Shown piece by piece: positions 32,828 to 40,077 of a stretch of DNA of 64,000 nt. Under the pieces are notes generated by a model. It made no database searches and had not been told where the DNA came from. It saw only the letters and a program-made list of their open reading frames with translations. This DNA is from Oscillospiraceae bacterium (GTDB lineage: Bacteria; Bacillota; Clostridia; Oscillospirales; Oscillospiraceae), in the NCBI GenBank assembly GCA_017540645.1, contig JAFYAQ010000004.1, positions 62,001 through 126,000 on the forward strand. The letters are read 5' to 3'. A program made the translations under genes and the position numbers. Numbering within the stretch: position 1 is the first letter of the stretch; the number at the start of each line of letters is the position of its first letter.

Positions 32828-34036
32828 TTACGCAATAAAGCTCTGTACGAGTCGGATGAGCATCTCCGGCATGAGATCCAGCGCCTTTACGGGGATGAAC
32901 TCATGGACCCCGTGGCAGTTATATCCGCCGGTGGACAGGTTGGGGCAGGGGAGACCCATCCAGGTCAGCATAGCCCCGTCCGTGCCGCCTCGGATGGCGT
33001 TGGCCACCGGCTCCACACCCACTGCCCGGAAGGCGTCCTCCGCCCGACGGAGGAGATGGGGGTGCTGCGACACGATCTCTTTCATGTTGTAGTAGGTGTC
33101 GGAAAGCTCCACTTCAACGGTTTGGGGGCCGTAGCGGCGGTTGATGGCGGCTGCGGCCTCGGTCATGCGGGCTTTCTTTTCCTCCAGAAGACTCCGGTCA
33201 TGGTCGCGGAGGATGTAGCGCAGCTCCGCGCTGACCACATCGCCCTTCATCTCGGTCAGATGGATAAAGCCCTCGTAGCCCTCGGTCTTCTCCGGGACCT
33301 GATCCGCGGGCAGGAGCCCATGGAACTCCATGGCGATGGTCGCCGCATTTTTCATGATATCCTTGGCGCTGCCGGGGTGGATGCCCACGCCCCGGAAGCG
33401 GACGACGGCAGAGGCGGCGTTGAAATTCTCATACTCGTACTCGCCCAGCGGGCCGCCGTCCACGGTGTAGCCCCACCGGCAGCGGAGGGACGCCACGTCC
33501 AGACCCTCGGTGCCGCGGCCTACCTCCTCGTCGGTGGTGAAAACCACCCGGATCTCCCCGTGGGGAATATCCTCCCGCAGCAGCTTTTCCGCCATGGTCA
33601 TGATCTCCGCCACGCCGGCCTTGTCGTCGGCGCCCAGCAGGGTGCTGCCGTCGGTCACCAGCAGTCTCTGGCCGTGGAGCTTTGCCATGGCGGGGAACTG
33701 CTGTTCCGAGAGCGTCTCCCCATGTCCCAGGGGAATGTCCTCCCCGGTGAACAGGACCTCTCTGGCCCGGACATTGGCCCCGCTGGCGGCGGGAGAGGTG
33801 TCCACATGGGCGATCAGGGCGATCGCCGGGGCCTCCGTGCCCGGACTTGCCGGAAGCGTTCCGATCACATTGCCGCACTCGTCGATATATACGTCCCGCA
33901 GACCGAGGACCGTCATCTCCTCCCGGAGCATCCGGCTCAGCGCCAGCTCCCGCTGGGCGGAGGGACTGGCGGAGCTGTCCTCATCGGAGGTGGTCTCCAC
34001 CGCTATATATCGCAAAAACCGTTCCTTTGCTGTCAT
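32828..34036 (-). CDS. pepT: Peptidase T (tripeptidase)
   Basis: PepT is a zinc aminopeptidase of the M20 family that removes the N-terminal residue of tripeptides in the cytoplasm. The 402-residue protein contains the metal motifs ALIAHVDTSP (with the catalytic Asp two residues later in the family pattern), LLGADDKAGVAEIM, VFTTDEEVGRGTEG and GGTDGAMLTWMGLPCPNL. The ATG at 34036 was chosen over an upstream in-frame ATG because GGAGG lies six bases before it. It probably feeds amino acids from imported peptides. The transcript starts at the extended -10 promoter just upstream. Confidence 0.94.
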   Translation of the reverse strand: MTAKERFLRYIAVETTSDEDSSASPSAQRELALSRMLREEMTVLGLRDVYIDECGNVIGTLPASPGTEAPAIALIAHVDTSPAASGANVRAREVLFTGEDIPLGHGETLSEQQFPAMAKLHGQRLLVTDGSTLLGADDKAGVAEIMTMAEKLLREDIPHGEIRVVFTTDEEVGRGTEGLDVASLRCRWGYTVDGGPLGEYEYENFNAASAVVRFRGVGIHPGSAKDIMKNAATIAMEFHGLLPADQVPEKTEGYEGFIHLTEMKGDVVSAELRYILRDHDRSLLEEKKARMTEAAAAINRRYGPQTVEVELSDTYYNMKEIVSQHPHLLRRAEDAFRAVGVEPVANAIRGGTDGAMLTWMGLPCPNLSTGGYNCHGVHEFIPVKALDLMPEMLIRLVQSFIA

Positions 34037-34068
34037 GATAAACCTCCGGTCAAACATTCTAAATAATA

Positions 34069-34077
34069 ATTATAGCA
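34069..34077 (-). promoter_or_regulatory. Extended -10 promoter of pepT
   Basis: On the minus strand TGC precedes a consensus TATAAT, about 35 bases upstream of the pepT start. The -35 region is poor. Confidence 0.6.
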
Positions 34078-34196
34078 TGCTCTGCCGGAAAAGGCCAGAA
34101 ATACTTTTTCAGCTGCAAAAACGACGGGAGAGAACTTTTTTCCTTTTTTTTCGTCTATTGATCAGAGGCGAAAACGGAAAAAGGAGGAAGTATGCA

Positions 34197-35147
34197 GTGT
34201 ACTACATTCTGAAAGACATGCCCCAGGCGGGGGCGGTGGTGATCCTGGTGATCCTGGCGCTGTTTGTTTGCGCCCTTGTCACCATGTTCACCCTCTGCGG
34301 CCGCTATCGGCGGATGAGCCGGACCCTGGAGGTCGGGGACTGGGAGGCCGATGCCTTCCTCAGCCGGGTGGAAGAGAGCTTTGCCGCCGCCTACAAGGAA
34401 AACGGCGCCCAGACCAACACCCCCGGCATCATCTCCTGCGCCATGGGCAGCGGACTTTCGCGGCTGCTGCTGTTGGAGCGCTTTTTGAACAATGCGGTCT
34501 CGCTTTTTGTGACCCTGGGCCTTTTCGGCACCTTCCTGGGTCTCAGCCTTTCCGTGTCCTCCCTGACCAAGCTGATCGGCTTCAGCAACACCAGCGAGTG
34601 GCTGAGCGTGCTGGACAGCGTGGGCGGGGGACTGATGAGCGCCCTCTCCGGCATGGGCGTGGCGTTCTATACCTCTCTGGCGGGCGCCGGCTGCTCCATC
34701 ATCCTGACGCTGCTGCGTACCATCTTCAATCCCCAGAGCCAGAGGGAAAGGCTCGCCACGGAGCTGGAGTTGTGGCTGGACCACGACATGGCCCCCACGC
34801 TCCCCGGACCGGAGAAAAAGGATGACGCCGCCCTTGTCCATGAGATGATCGGGGGCCTGAATCAGGCCTCGGACAGCATGGAAAAGACCCTGAACAACAG
34901 TTCCCGAGCCTTTCAAAAGACCTTGGATGAGGGCTCCGCGGCGCTCCAGAAGACCCTGGACGGGAGCCGGCCCTATCTGGTGGCCTTCCATCAGACGGTG
35001 GACAAGTTCAATACCGGCGTCCGTGACTTCGGGGAGATCGACTACAATCTCCGGGGCACCATCGAACGGCTGGATGTGGCGGCCCGGGATCTGGTCAGCG
35101 CCGTGCGCCAGACCGCCCGGAACACGGAGAAAGGAGCGGGCGGATGA
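34197..35147 (+). CDS. MotA/TolQ/ExbB-like membrane protein (ZorA-like)
   Basis: The 316-residue protein has three hydrophobic segments (about residues 10-31, 100-125 and 140-170; FVTLGLFGTFLGLSLSVSSL and LMSALSGMGVAFYTSLAGAG resemble MotA/TolQ helices), followed by a long polar, alpha-helical tail with repeats of SxxxxKTLDxGSxALQKTL (about 210-260). Such proteins form ion-driven stator pentamers with a MotB-like partner, encoded here directly downstream with a four-base overlap. Start GTG 34197 follows AAGGAGGAAG. No flagellar genes are nearby, so motility is unlikely. ZorA of Zorya defence systems has this layout, but the other Zorya genes are absent. Confidence 0.7.
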   Translation: MYYILKDMPQAGAVVILVILALFVCALVTMFTLCGRYRRMSRTLEVGDWEADAFLSRVEESFAAAYKENGAQTNTPGIISCAMGSGLSRLLLLERFLNNAVSLFVTLGLFGTFLGLSLSVSSLTKLIGFSNTSEWLSVLDSVGGGLMSALSGMGVAFYTSLAGAGCSIILTLLRTIFNPQSQRERLATELELWLDHDMAPTLPGPEKKDDAALVHEMIGGLNQASDSMEKTLNNSSRAFQKTLDEGSAALQKTLDGSRPYLVAFHQTVDKFNTGVRDFGEIDYNLRGTIERLDVAARDLVSAVRQTARNTEKGAGG

Positions 35148-36235
35148 AGCGTGCAAGCTTTGTGCGCGGCGGCCAGGTCTCCGTGGCAGAGGGAGAACAG
35201 GGCTTCTGGCCGTCCTACGCGGATATGATGTCCGCCGTGGCGCTGATCCTTTTCTTTTTGATGCTGCTGTCCTATATCCAGAATCTGATCACCGGCAATG
35301 ACCTGCAGAATACCCAGGAGGCGCTGACCGAGACCCGGGCCAGCCTTCTCAGTACCCAGGACCAGCTCTCGCTCACCAAGGCCCAGGTGGACGCGGCGGA
35401 AAAAGAACTCTCCATCGTGTCCTCCAGTCTGGAGGAGGCAAAAATCACTCTCAATTCCCAGGAAGAGGAGATCAAGGGCTACACCGCCGCCATCTCCCAG
35501 TACATCCGGGATATGGAGACCTACGCCAAGGAGATCGCCGGGCAGGAACAGACCATCCAGCAGCAGCAGCAGCTGATCGACTGGCAGGAGGAATATCTGG
35601 CGGCGGCCAACTCGGAGCTTCGGGAGATGCGCAGTCAGATGCAGACCATCGCCGTGCTGCGCCTGTCCATTCTGGAGCAGATCCGGGAGAGCATCGTGGA
35701 GGTGATGGGGGACGCGTCCAAGGTCACCATCGGCGACAACGGCAGCATCATCCTCTCCGAAGGCGTGTTCTTCGACCTGGGCTCCTCCGACATCAAGCCG
35801 GAGAGTCGCCCGGTCCTGGACCAGCTGATCAAGGTGTTCACCCGCTTCCTCTCGGACAGTGAAAACGCCAAGTATGTGGACAGCGTGGTAATCTCCGGCC
35901 ACACGGACATCACCGGCGACGCCGCCCGGAACCGTACGCTCTCCACCGACCGGGCCAACTCCGTTTTGAACTATCTCCTGAGCGGCGACAACAAGGCGCT
36001 GGACCGGTACGCCCAGTTTTTCTGCGCCGCCGGCTATGGAGCCACCCGCCCGGTGCAGAGCAATGACACCGTGGAGGGCCGCGCCGCCAACCGCCGGATC
36101 GAGATATCCATGATCCTGAAGGATGAGACCGTGCTGGAGATCGTGGAGCAGTATCTGGCTTTGGAGATGCCGGAGACGGCGAGCAGCCCCGCGCCGACGC
36201 CTACACCCGTCCCTAGCGCCAGACCCAGAATCTGA
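35144..36235 (+). CDS. MotB/OmpA-like peptidoglycan-binding membrane protein (ZorB-like)
   Basis: The N-terminus WPSYADMMSAVALILFFLMLL has the MotB pattern: a proton-binding aspartate (Asp27) at the start of a single membrane helix. A long coiled coil (about residues 60-180) follows, then an OmpA-type domain (about 200-340) with FFDLGSSDIKPESRPVLDQL, ISGHTDITGDAARNRTLS and EGRAANRRIEISM, which bind peptidoglycan. The end is Pro/Ala-rich. Together with the preceding three-helix protein it makes a stator-like pair. The coiled coil is much longer than in flagellar MotB. A terminator follows. The role is not known. Confidence 0.75.
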   Translation: MKRASFVRGGQVSVAEGEQGFWPSYADMMSAVALILFFLMLLSYIQNLITGNDLQNTQEALTETRASLLSTQDQLSLTKAQVDAAEKELSIVSSSLEEAKITLNSQEEEIKGYTAAISQYIRDMETYAKEIAGQEQTIQQQQQLIDWQEEYLAAANSELREMRSQMQTIAVLRLSILEQIRESIVEVMGDASKVTIGDNGSIILSEGVFFDLGSSDIKPESRPVLDQLIKVFTRFLSDSENAKYVDSVVISGHTDITGDAARNRTLSTDRANSVLNYLLSGDNKALDRYAQFFCAAGYGATRPVQSNDTVEGRAANRRIEISMILKDETVLEIVEQYLALEMPETASSPAPTPTPVPSARPRI

Positions 36236-36244
36236 AAACAACGG

Positions 36245-36289
36245 TATAAAGCATACAGCTGCCCCTTGTGGGCAGCTGTATGCTTTATA
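36245..36289. terminator. Bidirectional terminator between MotB-like gene and response regulator
   Basis: A 19-bp perfect inverted repeat (arms TATAAAGCATACAGCTGCC and its complement) with a seven-base loop lies between two converging genes. Confidence 0.85.
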
Positions 36290-36297
36290 TATTATTT

Positions 36298-37005
36298 CTA
36301 CAAGCGGCGGGACGCAAAAAAAAGCTCCCGCACTTTTTTACGGTAAGTTCGGCTGATCGGGATCCGGTCTCCGTTCACCATGACGAGGTCGTTCCGATCC
36401 AAAGCGTAGACTTTGGCAGTGTTGACCCAGTACCCCTGGTGACAGCGAACCAGGTGGCCTTTCCATAAAGGATCCGAAAAATCAGATGCCAGGTTAACGC
36501 TGCCATAATCTGCCGCCTGTCCAACGACCCGGTATTTCCGCCCCACCCGCTCAACGTAGAGCAACTCGTTAAGGGCGACCCGATAAATCTTTCGGTTTGA
36601 GCGGAAAAGGAACGCCGGCAGGAATTGGCGTTCTGAAAGATTGTTCATGGCTTTTTCCAGAGCGGCCGGAAGATACTCGTTCAGCTGGTCTTTCAGAACA
36701 AACCAGATGTGGTCGGCAACATATGCCTCCGAGGCGTAATCCGAGTAACCGGTGAGGAAAATGACCTGGCAATCCGGCAGGAGGTGGTTGATTTCTCCCG
36801 CAATCCGAATCCCGTTCAGTTTCCCGAGCTTGATATCAAGTATCACAATATCCGGCGCGGACTCGCCGGCTTCGATCTCACGGAGAAGGGAGATTCCGTC
36901 GGAGCAGGTCCTGACGTCATAGCTCGGATCGACGGCAGCACGTACCAGAGCCAGCGCCCGGTCCAGATGAAGCGGGTTGTCGTCACAAATCATGATCTGA
37001 GCCAA
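36298..37005 (-). CDS. LytTR-family response regulator
   Basis: The receiver domain has the acidic pair CDD (residues 7-9), the phosphoacceptor Asp57 in IVILDIKLG and a Thr/Lys pattern (FLTGYSD, FVLKDQ). The C-terminal half (about 130-235) is a LytTR DNA-binding domain (YVERVGRKYRVVG, FSDPLWKGHLVRCHQGYWVNTAKV, ISRTYRKKV), as in AgrA. The 235-residue protein starts at TTG 37005 after GGGGG; ATG 36993 is an alternative. It is last in the kinase operon. Likely targets are nearby genes, since a pair of 21-bp-spaced direct repeats lies at 38900-38935; that link is an inference. Confidence 0.9.
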   Translation of the reverse strand: MAQIMICDDNPLHLDRALALVRAAVDPSYDVRTCSDGISLLREIEAGESAPDIVILDIKLGKLNGIRIAGEINHLLPDCQVIFLTGYSDYASEAYVADHIWFVLKDQLNEYLPAALEKAMNNLSERQFLPAFLFRSNRKIYRVALNELLYVERVGRKYRVVGQAADYGSVNLASDFSDPLWKGHLVRCHQGYWVNTAKVYALDRNDLVMVNGDRIPISRTYRKKVRELFFASRRL

Positions 37006-37008
37006 CGC

Positions 37009-38298
37009 TTAGAAACCCCCTTTCAGTAGAATCGAAACAGAAAAGAATTTATCCCCGGCGGAAGTCGAGAGGTCCCCGTCGTATTTATTTGCCAGATGCT
37101 GCAGGATTGATAGTCCCAGCCCCCGGTCTAGGCCAGAGATACGGCGCGTCTTCACGGTTGAAAACCTGTCATAGCTGTTCTCTGACATGACGCGCAGATA
37201 AGGCGCCAGATAATCGGCACGGAGGCGGAAAACCGGGTCCGATACGCCAGCACAGGCCTCCTCCGCATTGTCCAGAAGGTTGCCGAACAGACAGATGAGA
37301 TCCGGGTCGGAGACCGCGGAGAACTCTGGCAGGGAAACGGTGAATTCCGTACGGACTCCCACGGCTTCCAGAAGCTCTTTCCGGCGGGAGAGAAAACCTG
37401 CCACCACGCGGTTGCCGCATTCCGGCAGGGAACGCGTCGTGATCAGCGCCTTTTGAAACTCCTCGGCGCGCCGGAGCAAATCGCCGGCATTTTTTTGAGA
37501 CGCCAGAAAGAGCATCTCATCCCAGCATCCCGCGATATCCGCCTCCATCGTCTCCATGCGGCGACGTTCGGAAAGGAGCGATTCGATTTGGTGCTGCAGG
37601 CTGCGCTGTTCTTCGTCGCGGCAGCGGACATCCGTCTCAAGAGCCACCATCTCCGCGGTAGAGCGTATTAGCAGGAATAAGGCAGCATCAGCTGCCAGAT
37701 ATGGAACGAAGAGAAGGAGAAGCTGTGAAACAGAGACGATGCGCTCCCCCAGCCAGAAGACGTTGAACCAGCGGAAGAGCAGTGCCAGTTGACTGATGGG
37801 GAAAAGGGAAAATAAAAACATCTGCGGCGCGCTCATTTCCCAGGGATAATTTCGGCGGAGGCGCCACACGACCAGTACCAGCAGACTGAGCAAGGCTGCG
37901 TTGGTTAAGAAATTAAACAGGTACTGAGAGAAGGTGAAATCATACTGAAGCGTCTGCTCTTGGGACATTGTTCCCGCAATGGCATAATAGACAAAGATAT
38001 CCGCAACCAGGGCGACAAGAAGAAAGCCGCAGACGACGGCAATTCGGGTATACCATCGCCCGCGATGCATCAGGCAGAAGAACAATATGATAAACGAGCC
38101 GCCGATCAGGAAGCGGACAAAAGGTGACGCTCCCGCAGACAAAAGCAACTCCGTGAGCCCGTGGTGGACGGAAAAGAAGGCCAGCTCAACGATCCAGGTC
38201 AGGACTACGGAAACCCTACGGGGGAGAAGAATGTTGAGCACTGTGACCCAGAGGCACCACTGCAGGAAATTGAAAACGACGGCAACAACGGGGATCAT
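37009..38298 (-). CDS. GHKL sensor kinase without a visible phosphoacceptor histidine
   Basis: The 429-residue protein has an AgrC-like build: six or so hydrophobic segments (to about residue 210), a coiled linker, and a C-terminal ATPase with the N-box NLLDNAEEACAG and the G-box LDRGLGLSILQHLANKYDGDL. Where AgrC-type kinases have an H-D-x-x-x-H phosphoacceptor block, this reads ADIAGCWDEMLFLASQ, with no histidine. It could therefore phosphorylate another protein in trans, and the neighbouring upstream gene has exactly the missing block. The ATG at 38298 follows GGAGG and overlaps the upstream stop (ATGA). Confidence 0.85.
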   Translation of the reverse strand: MIPVVAVVFNFLQWCLWVTVLNILLPRRVSVVLTWIVELAFFSVHHGLTELLLSAGASPFVRFLIGGSFIILFFCLMHRGRWYTRIAVVCGFLLVALVADIFVYYAIAGTMSQEQTLQYDFTFSQYLFNFLTNAALLSLLVLVVWRLRRNYPWEMSAPQMFLFSLFPISQLALLFRWFNVFWLGERIVSVSQLLLLFVPYLAADAALFLLIRSTAEMVALETDVRCRDEEQRSLQHQIESLLSERRRMETMEADIAGCWDEMLFLASQKNAGDLLRRAEEFQKALITTRSLPECGNRVVAGFLSRRKELLEAVGVRTEFTVSLPEFSAVSDPDLICLFGNLLDNAEEACAGVSDPVFRLRADYLAPYLRVMSENSYDRFSTVKTRRISGLDRGLGLSILQHLANKYDGDLSTSAGDKFFSVSILLKGGF

Positions 38299-38759
38299 AT
38301 TTCGCCTCCATCTCCCGAACACGCAGTCTGAGCGGCATAGCTCTCCGGCAACTCAAAAGAGCGGCGCAGCTCTTCAATATATCGCCGGGCCTCGTCAGTC
38401 CTCTCTTCCTCCGCCAGGATCTTAACGGTATACAGGTGGTTGGAAAGGTCGTGGCGGAGAGTGCTCATCCGGGCGTAGTGTTCTGCCAGAGATCGACAGT
38501 ATTCTTCCTGCTGCCGGATCTGCCGAAGCAGAGACTCCTTTTCGGCCTGCAGCGCCGCTGTTTTCCGAAGGGACCGGGTGGCAACGGCAAGAAGGCTATC
38601 TGCGGCGACGCACATAATTAGAAGCAAGACAGTTACGAGCGTTCCTCCCGAATTGGGCGAATCACTGGCCCCGTAAAACCGTGGGAACAACAGAAACAGT
38701 TGGCTAATGGGAAATACAAGAAAAATAAGGGGGAACAGCGGTCTTGATCTTTTCTCCAT
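38295..38759 (-). CDS. Short kinase-like protein with phosphoacceptor block and no ATPase domain
   Basis: This 154-residue protein has two membrane segments (about residues 8-28 and 40-63), a coiled linker and the block RHDLSNHLYTVKILAEE, in which the first histidine (His103) matches the phosphoacceptor of AgrC-type kinases. It then stops after about 45 residues, with no GHKL ATPase. Its hydrophobic part and linker resemble the matching part of the next protein, so the two arose by duplication. ATG 38759 is nine bases after AGGAG; an ATG at 38765 is also in frame. It is the first gene of a three-gene operon. Confidence 0.78.
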   Translation of the reverse strand: MEKRSRPLFPLIFLVFPISQLFLLFPRFYGASDSPNSGGTLVTVLLLIMCVAADSLLAVATRSLRKTAALQAEKESLLRQIRQQEEYCRSLAEHYARMSTLRHDLSNHLYTVKILAEEERTDEARRYIEELRRSFELPESYAAQTACSGDGGEI

Positions 38760-38802: not shown

Positions 38803-38830
38803 ATTATAGCATAGTAATAAGGCATGTCAA
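38803..38830 (-). promoter_or_regulatory. Promoter of the kinase/regulator operon
   Basis: On the minus strand, consensus TTGACA (38825-38830) and TATAAT (38803-38808) are separated by 16 bases. The first gene starts about 40 bases downstream. Confidence 0.75.
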
Positions 38831-38935: not shown

Positions 38936-39195
38936 GTCCGGAACACACAAGAAAGAAAAAATGGTAAGCTTTTTTTGCAAAAAAGAGCGTCATCGAGAGG
39001 GCGTATACAGCAAATCGTCTACTATCTTGTTCCTTGTCTGCCGTCCGCACAGCAAGTTTCTGACATGTTGATGGAAGGAGCATATCAGGGAAGAATGGAA
39101 GATGAACTGCCTCTACAGTCTAACCCACCGGAGAAAAATGACGGAGACAAAGCGGGATCCACCATAAAACAGTTCGATTAACAAGGATGATAAAA

Positions 39196-40077
39196 ATGAA
39201 GAAATATCTGCCAATACTATGCCTGATAATCCTAATAGGGCTTCTTTGTGCCTGCGGAAACCAGCCGGAGAAAGCTGCCGCCTTTAAAAAAGATAATGAG
39301 AACGAGGAAATCGTTTCTTCCGGCTCCTGTGGTGATAATGCTGTCTGGGAGCTGAGCAAGGACGGTACTGTAACGATCTCTGGTTCTGGAGAAATGTGGG
39401 ATTATGATGCCCATGAAGAATCAAACCGTTCACCATGGTCCTGGGATGATTCCATCAAAAAAGTGGTTGTGAAAGAAGGAATACAAAGTATCGGGGTGGA
39501 TGCATTCTTTGGTTGTTCCGAATTGAAGACAGTTTCCTTGCCAAAGAGTCTTTTGCGGGTGAGCGGTGGTGCATTTGCAGGGTGTTTTTCGCTCGGTGAC
39601 GTTACGATTCCTCAAAATGTTGAGGTTATAGAGACTGGAGTTTTTTTGGATTGTATTTCCATGGAGAATATTTATGTGGAAGATGGCAACCAAGCATTTG
39701 TGTCAGACAATGGAGTCTTATACGATCATGATTTTGAAACCTTGCTTGTTTGTCCAGCGGGAAAAACAGGTTCCTTTAATATACCGGATGGAATAACATC
39801 AATTGAATTCCACGCTTTTTATGGAAGCTTATTAAACGAAATAACAATCCCAGAAAGCATCACTTGCCTGGGAGAATTTGCATTTTGCAAATGTGACGGG
39901 TTGACCACGATTACGATCCCAAGCAGTGTTACAAAAATTGAATATGGTGTATTTATCTGGTGTGATAGTTTGGCCAATGTTTATTTTCTGGGTTCGGAAG
40001 AACAGTGGAACAATATTGCAATCGATTCCAGAAATGATAGACTTGAGCAAGCGGATATATATTACGATATGGACTAG
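39196..40077 (+). CDS. Lipoprotein with BspA-type leucine-rich repeats
   Basis: A signal sequence ends in the lipobox LCAC, so the protein is exported and anchored by Cys19 or so. After a short polar spacer the rest is built from BspA-type (LRR_5) repeats of the form IxSIGxxAFxGCxxLxxVxIPxxV (for example AFFGCSELKTVSLPKSL, AFAGCFSLGDVTIPQNV, AFCKCDGLTTITIPSSV). Such proteins are common on the surface of gut Firmicutes and bind host or bacterial partners. The gene is AT-richer than the housekeeping part of the window. ATG 39196 follows AAGG at nine bases. Confidence 0.87.
   Translation: MKKYLPILCLIILIGLLCACGNQPEKAAAFKKDNENEEIVSSGSCGDNAVWELSKDGTVTISGSGEMWDYDAHEESNRSPWSWDDSIKKVVVKEGIQSIGVDAFFGCSELKTVSLPKSLLRVSGGAFAGCFSLGDVTIPQNVEVIETGVFLDCISMENIYVEDGNQAFVSDNGVLYDHDFETLLVCPAGKTGSFNIPDGITSIEFHAFYGSLLNEITIPESITCLGEFAFCKCDGLTTITIPSSVTKIEYGVFIWCDSLANVYFLGSEEQWNNIAIDSRNDRLEQADIYYDMD

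Follow-up and report, generated by a model that had tools for sequence, protein, structure and literature searches.

Two adjacent genes of an Oscillospiraceae bacterium, located in the window (the whole 64,000-nucleotide stretch of DNA that was analysed), probably encode one AgrC-type histidine kinase that is divided over two membrane proteins: a long subunit with the ATP-binding GHKL domain, and a short subunit that would be phosphorylated in trans and would transfer the phosphoryl group to a LytTR response regulator. The genes lie in one minus-strand operon, 38830 to 36245, composed of a promoter, the gene for the 156-residue short subunit, the gene for the 429-residue long subunit, the regulator gene, and a terminator (Table 1). 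This layout, the complementary losses in the two kinase proteins, their common origin, the intact regulator, and the recurrence of the arrangement in other genomes are read from the sequence. The promoter agrees with its consensus at 12 of 12 positions and is the top-scoring candidate within the region. The short and long reading frames overlap in an ATGA, with a GGAGG 6 nt upstream, and look translationally coupled. The long gene has an ATG start with a Shine-Dalgarno sequence; an alternative GTG start at 38322 would lengthen the protein by eight residues, to 437. In the regulator, the predicted phosphoacceptor is Asp57 in VILDIKLG. Direct repeats upstream of the promoter were considered as a LytTR site and rejected, as they are just short two-copy repeats that could have arisen by chance.

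Table 1. Features of the proposed split-kinase operon, with positions in the window
Feature	Position	Strand	Basis
Promoter, TTGACA-16-TATAAT with TG before the -10 box	38803..38830	-	Predicted; sigma-70 consensus match only
Short subunit, 156 aa	38295..38765	-	ORF and Pfam
His105 codon CAC, predicted phosphoacceptor	38451..38453	-	Aligned with the invariant His of relatives
Long subunit, 429 aa from ATG	37009..38298	-	ORF and Pfam
Ala253 codon GCG, at the phosphoacceptor His position	37540..37542	-	Alignment
N box GNLLDNAEEAC of the GHKL domain, intact	37252..37284	-	Alignment; N340 and N344 invariant
G2 box RGLGLSI, intact	37105..37125	-	Alignment
Response regulator, 235 aa, receiver and LytTR DNA-binding domain	36298..37005	-	Pfam Response_reg 9.4e-14, LytTR 2.4e-13
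Terminator, 20-bp stem, could act on both strands, operon end	36245..36289	.	Predicted; consensus match only

The short protein is composed of two transmembrane (TM) helices, which match TM5-6 of the long protein, a coiled coil, and a DHp hairpin that contains the motif RHDLSNH. Pfam calls SPOB_a (E = 3.6e-7) and no GHKL domain, and the C terminus of the protein falls where the GHKL domain would start. The long protein comprises a full membrane sensor, a degenerate DHp region, which is not called by Pfam, and an intact AgrC-like GHKL domain (HATPase_c_5, E = 3.3e-12). Across the histidine box, the alignment of the two proteins is free of gaps (RMSTLRHDLSNHLYT / RMETMEADIAGCWDE), which places His105 of the short protein opposite Ala253 of the long protein and the asparagine at position H+4 of the short protein opposite a glycine. 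Because the histidine column is His in 44 of 44 full-length family relatives (the set behind the DHp profile), the loss of His from the long protein is not ordinary variation. The initial annotation had described the short protein as RHDLSNH without a GHKL domain, the long protein as a GHKL domain without an acceptor histidine, and the two as complementary halves encoded in one operon, a description that these results bear out; a histidine of the long protein in register with the acceptor had been named as counterevidence, and none of its histidines aligns there.

The AlphaFold model of the long protein has a mean pLDDT of 86. Its best structural matches are the AgrC kinase module (6e95, Z = 16.7) and the AgrC ATP-binding domain (4bxi, Z = 16.1, with an rmsd of 2.8 Å over 132 residues), and the nearest sequence in the PDB, though a weak match, is also AgrC. 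The long subunit has the polytopic membrane sensor and the HATPase_c_5-type GHKL domain of an AgrC-type (HPK10) kinase; the acceptor His and the GHKL domain, which such a kinase carries in a single chain, are found on separate chains in this pair.

A genome-wide search with the long protein gave a single further match, which is the short protein (E = 3.1e-6, 26% over 125 aa). As judged by this homology, the pair is derived from tandem duplication of an AgrC-type (HPK10) kinase, as had first been proposed from the hydrophobic segments that the two proteins share. The competing proposal of a single gene broken by a frameshift in the assembly is ruled out by the presence of the same domain in both proteins and by the ATGA overlap with its GGAGG. 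Nor does the locus have the appearance of a duplication remnant or pseudogene, in that the frames are open and the promoter, coupling, and terminator are present.

No AgrC-type GHKL kinase apart from the long protein is encoded in the genome. The three other PF14501 matches are classical HELxTP/HEIxTP kinases, and thus there is no third AgrC-type partner to supply a missing part. The label "agr-type" used in the initial annotation holds for the kinase, which is adjoined by a LytTR response regulator, but not for the wider system: AgrB (PF04647) has no match in the genome at E 0.1, with a model of unproven sensitivity that passed the cut-off in 0 of 14 control genomes. With no AgrB found, there is no indication of an agr-like cyclic peptide. 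Convergent to the operon, at 33510-36235 of the window, are genes for a MotA/TolQ-like membrane protein and then an overlapping OmpA/MotB-like protein (35144-36235), both named by reading of their sequences, and this gene pair has the terminator in common with the kinase operon. Divergent from the operon is a gene for a lipoprotein with BspA-like-looking repeats (39187-40077), which is a possible target of the LytTR regulator.

Searches for complementary pairs covered 400 genomes of the family, 394 of the order, four genera, and GTDB contigs; a first GTDB scan with the short protein as the query gave no match. Conservation of both losses in relatives, which had been suggested as a check, was observed in part: none of the eight congeneric genomes that were examined has the exact pair, but complementary pairs recur in further genera, including members of a second phylum. 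In genome G251, a long protein with Glu at the His position is followed by an overlapping short protein with RHDINNQ. The LytTR regulator gene of G251 (L103:5012-5728) is broken up into two reading frames as a result of either mutation or an assembly error. In G321, which belongs to the same genus, both halves are fused in-frame in a single 611-residue chain, in the order sensor, His-less DHp, GHKL, two TM helices, and DHp with His; the halves were compared by multiple alignment, pairwise alignment being out of register. At the sequence level, this fusion is a Rosetta-stone link between the halves.

The other pairs display considerable variability in architecture. The G142 operon encodes two His-bearing short proteins with RHDYNNH and then a long protein with RQDYNRH (His to Gln) and an intact GHKL domain. 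In G246, the regulator gene is located between the kinase genes, preceded by that of a long protein with QSEYDAL (His to Ser) and followed by that of a short protein with RHDYRNL. Both partners of G402 are full length: partner A has RQSYRRT (His to Gln) and an intact GHKL domain, and partner B has RHDYSNV and a decayed GHKL domain, with SHLVDLA as its N box and the G2 glycines gone. Two Merdimonas genomes encode a short protein with a full sensor and RHDFQNY or RHDYQNY, together with a long protein that has just two TM helices, RSDFEKR (His to Ser), and an intact GHKL domain. In Olsenella uli (Actinomycetota), the short protein contains RHDVRNH, and the long protein contains RERAASL (His to Glu) and an intact GHKL domain. 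Because these layouts differ, the sensor can stay with either half or with both. The H+4 Asn is lost in every His-less paired partner and present in every His-bearing partner, and the GHKL N and G2 boxes are intact in all of the His-less partners. Pfam finds a GHKL domain in 5 of 5 separate long proteins scanned and in no short protein; SPOB_a is called in the short proteins of G251 and G142 and in the C-terminal half of the G321 fusion, and not in the Merdimonas or Olsenella short proteins. Two further candidates were rejected: an open reading frame of G203, considered as a short protein, has sensor helices but has lost the DHp region and looks truncated, and L067, flagged as His-less by a crude motif search, has an ordinary RHDLRH box.

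Loci with only one type of loss were also observed. A tandem copy in G306, 82% identical to a first copy that is still complete, lacks only the GHKL domain and may represent an early stage of splitting. The G550 locus (L263:3531-6086) contains two tandem ATPase-less acceptor proteins and a receiver-only truncated regulator, with no ATPase partner nearby, and looks like a dying split operon. An orphan His-less AgrC-type kinase, in which RQDMKDR replaces RHD..N and the GHKL domain is intact, is found in G467 (L121:1501-2769) and G368 (L046:261-1529); no partner or regulator was seen adjoining either copy, the G368 copy being at a contig end. The copies are 95% identical in two species, so the orphan is apparently maintained, and its existence indicates that His loss can happen without a split. 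Together with G251 and G550, the orphan shows either that split systems too are subject to decay or that the histidine can be lost for other reasons. A paralogue of the orphan in the same two genomes (L135:1501-2742 in G467, L092:2812-4053 in G368) has an intact RHDMKNH and a degenerate N box (SLLDHA) and could be its unlinked complementary partner.

The AgrC-type kinase genes of all loci retrieved were grouped into 224 operons, of which 8 have both losses (the G321 fusion not among them), 2 have His loss only, 4 have ATPase loss only, and 210 have neither. The association of the two losses (Fisher p = 1.6e-10) is overstated, because split proteins were among the queries; the imbalance toward paired losses is very large despite this query bias. 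Every copy is intact in nine other multi-kinase operons, which argues that tandem arrays are not decaying by default.

In the GHKL tree, the long protein nests inside a fully supported (100) group of intact AgrC-type kinases from the same bacterial family, G171, G006, G376, and G160, each of which is one complete kinase rather than two halves; three of these (G006, G171, and G160) adjoin a regulator similar to that of the operon. The G251/G321 pair and the G142/G246/G402 group fall elsewhere in the tree. For the tested His-less partners, a single origin is rejected: constraining the six in the tree to be monophyletic costs 54 log units (AU p = 8e-5). Five changes of His state are needed on the tree, one of them for the orphan kinase. 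The tree, which does not include the later-found Merdimonas and Olsenella pairs, supports roughly three independent origins for the paired architecture. By taxonomy, the Merdimonas and Olsenella pairs are likely further separate cases, and origins beyond about three are likely.

The recurrence bears on whether the locus is simply dying, a tandem duplicate losing parts at random. Absence of the pair from the eight congeneric genomes and the damaged look of the G550 and G251 loci are compatible with such decay, which we nonetheless regard as very unlikely given the open frames, perfect promoter match, ATGA coupling, intact regulator, and terminator of the operon, and the same complementary pattern in independent lineages. 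Recurrence in gut-type bacteria suggests instead a working two-part switch. We lean, by a modest measure, toward the broader proposal that tandem AgrC-type duplicates repeatedly divide in Clostridia and Coriobacteriia, yielding recurrent and undescribed obligate two-subunit membrane kinases, each with an ATPase subunit and at least one phosphoacceptor subunit. Such kinases would furnish natural proof of trans-phosphorylation and act as an AND gate, with one ATPase able to serve several partners. The two acceptors of the G142 operon suggest this sharing of one ATPase among several sensor/acceptor partners.

For the pair in the window, the heterodimer with trans-phosphorylation that the initial annotation had proposed is the best-supported of the mechanisms that we infer. 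The long subunit would supply the sensor helices and the ATP-binding GHKL domain, and the short subunit would supply TM5-6 and a DHp hairpin in which the pair's sole usable histidine and sole H+4 asparagine are located. The subunits would pair via the DHp/coiled-coil region, a plausible contact surface because homology in DHp and TM5-6 is retained in both. The GHKL domain of the long subunit would then phosphorylate His105 of the short subunit in trans, presumably under the control of a signal. The phosphoryl group would next be transferred from the short subunit to Asp57 in the receiver of the LytTR regulator, for which the short subunit probably serves as phosphatase as well. Because the GHKL domain has no His in its own chain and the His has no GHKL domain, kinase activity would be possible only with both proteins present. 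Because the H+4 Asn is kept on the acceptor subunit in every pair, phosphotransfer and any phosphatase activity are expected there. In an AlphaFold model of the fused G321 chain (pTM 0.37), the packing of the DHp hairpins is too uncertain for a heterodimer interface to be read from it.

An arrangement of this kind is known from Rhodobacter sphaeroides, in which neither CheA3 nor CheA4 autophosphorylates alone, a mixture of the two phosphorylates the acceptor, and CheA3, the acceptor protein, keeps a phosphatase role (PMC3591291). Similar to CheA3/CheA4, in which the ATPase protein works on a separate acceptor protein (PMC3591291), the long and short subunits could form separate homodimers that meet transiently, the ATPase subunit still acting on the acceptor subunit. 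The DHp/coiled-coil region kept in both proteins (for the long protein, in the AlphaFold model) would allow for homodimers, but we consider this arrangement unlikely, since the two proteins, unlike CheA3/CheA4, share homologous TM5-6 and DHp segments, through which such kinases usually dimerise, and the G321 fusion links the halves 1:1. Alternatively, the pair could have no kinase activity, with the short protein acting on the regulator as a free-standing phosphatase or a decoy, the long protein controlling it as an ATP-sensing pseudokinase, and the regulator being charged by another kinase or by acetyl phosphate. The phosphatase motif (HD..N) is kept in all short proteins, as this alternative would have it, and a Caulobacter kinase repurposed in the reverse direction is reported (PMC4211667). 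It is nevertheless improbable, in that the N and G2 boxes are intact in all His-less partners and degenerate in the His-keeping partner B of G402, a pattern consistent with ATP use being selected for in one partner and not the other, and the genome has no other AgrC-type kinase.

CheA3/CheA4 are an established precedent for the placing of phosphoacceptor and ATPase on separate polypeptides, as in the present pair, and the split-kinase principle is not new. The differences are that CheA3/CheA4 belong to the CheA class, are part of a cytoplasmic cluster, and are missing whole domains, whereas the present proteins are AgrC-class membrane sensors and tandem paralogues in which the acceptor was lost by substitution in a retained DHp region. 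The CheA family domains P1 (HPt), P3, P4, and P5 (CheW-like) are not found by Pfam in either subunit. The study of the CheA pair proposed other split kinases, with 3.66% of HisKA proteins having no HATPase domain (PMC3591291). In Synechocystis, Hik36/Hik43 have been proposed to form a split histidine kinase that feeds a single regulator; this system differs from the present pair in that it involves a CheA homologue with an HPt domain and genes that are far apart (PMC7656254). In AgrC of Staphylococcus aureus, a single chain contains His239 as well as the G box (PMC6755735). The AgrC/AgrA system resembles the present one in having the nearest solved fold and a LytTR regulator, and differs in its one-protein kinase and in the lack of an AgrB match in the present genome. 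Two different kinases are joined via their DHp regions in the RetS-GacS complex of Pseudomonas, of which a co-complex (7n0e) is among the structural matches. GacS is a complete kinase, and the RetS-GacS contact is regulatory.

The open-access literature searched contained no membrane AgrC-type split kinase and no split kinase arising from complementary loss in tandem paralogues, and nothing relevant on heterodimeric histidine kinases or kinases without an ATPase domain. The initial annotation, which could not name a described agr-type system of this build, agrees with this search but missed the CheA3/CheA4 precedent. In the laboratory, cis and trans autophosphorylation are told apart by combining two mutants of the same kinase, one His-dead and the other ATP-dead. 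The operons are nature's version of this mixture, made more than once, and they would show that an AgrC-class kinase can function when each pair has a single ATPase and a single histidine. The study of the CheA pair argues that ultrasensitive or bistable switches can arise when a bifunctional kinase is split (PMC3591291), and the loci are candidates for testing such switching in membrane sensors, as well as ready-made parts for two-input synthetic circuits. Two arrays in G578 (L266:4247-8355 and L267:3576-9020) contain three and four tandem AgrC-type kinases, respectively, all with intact His and N box, and possibly represent sensor diversification or raw material for splitting.
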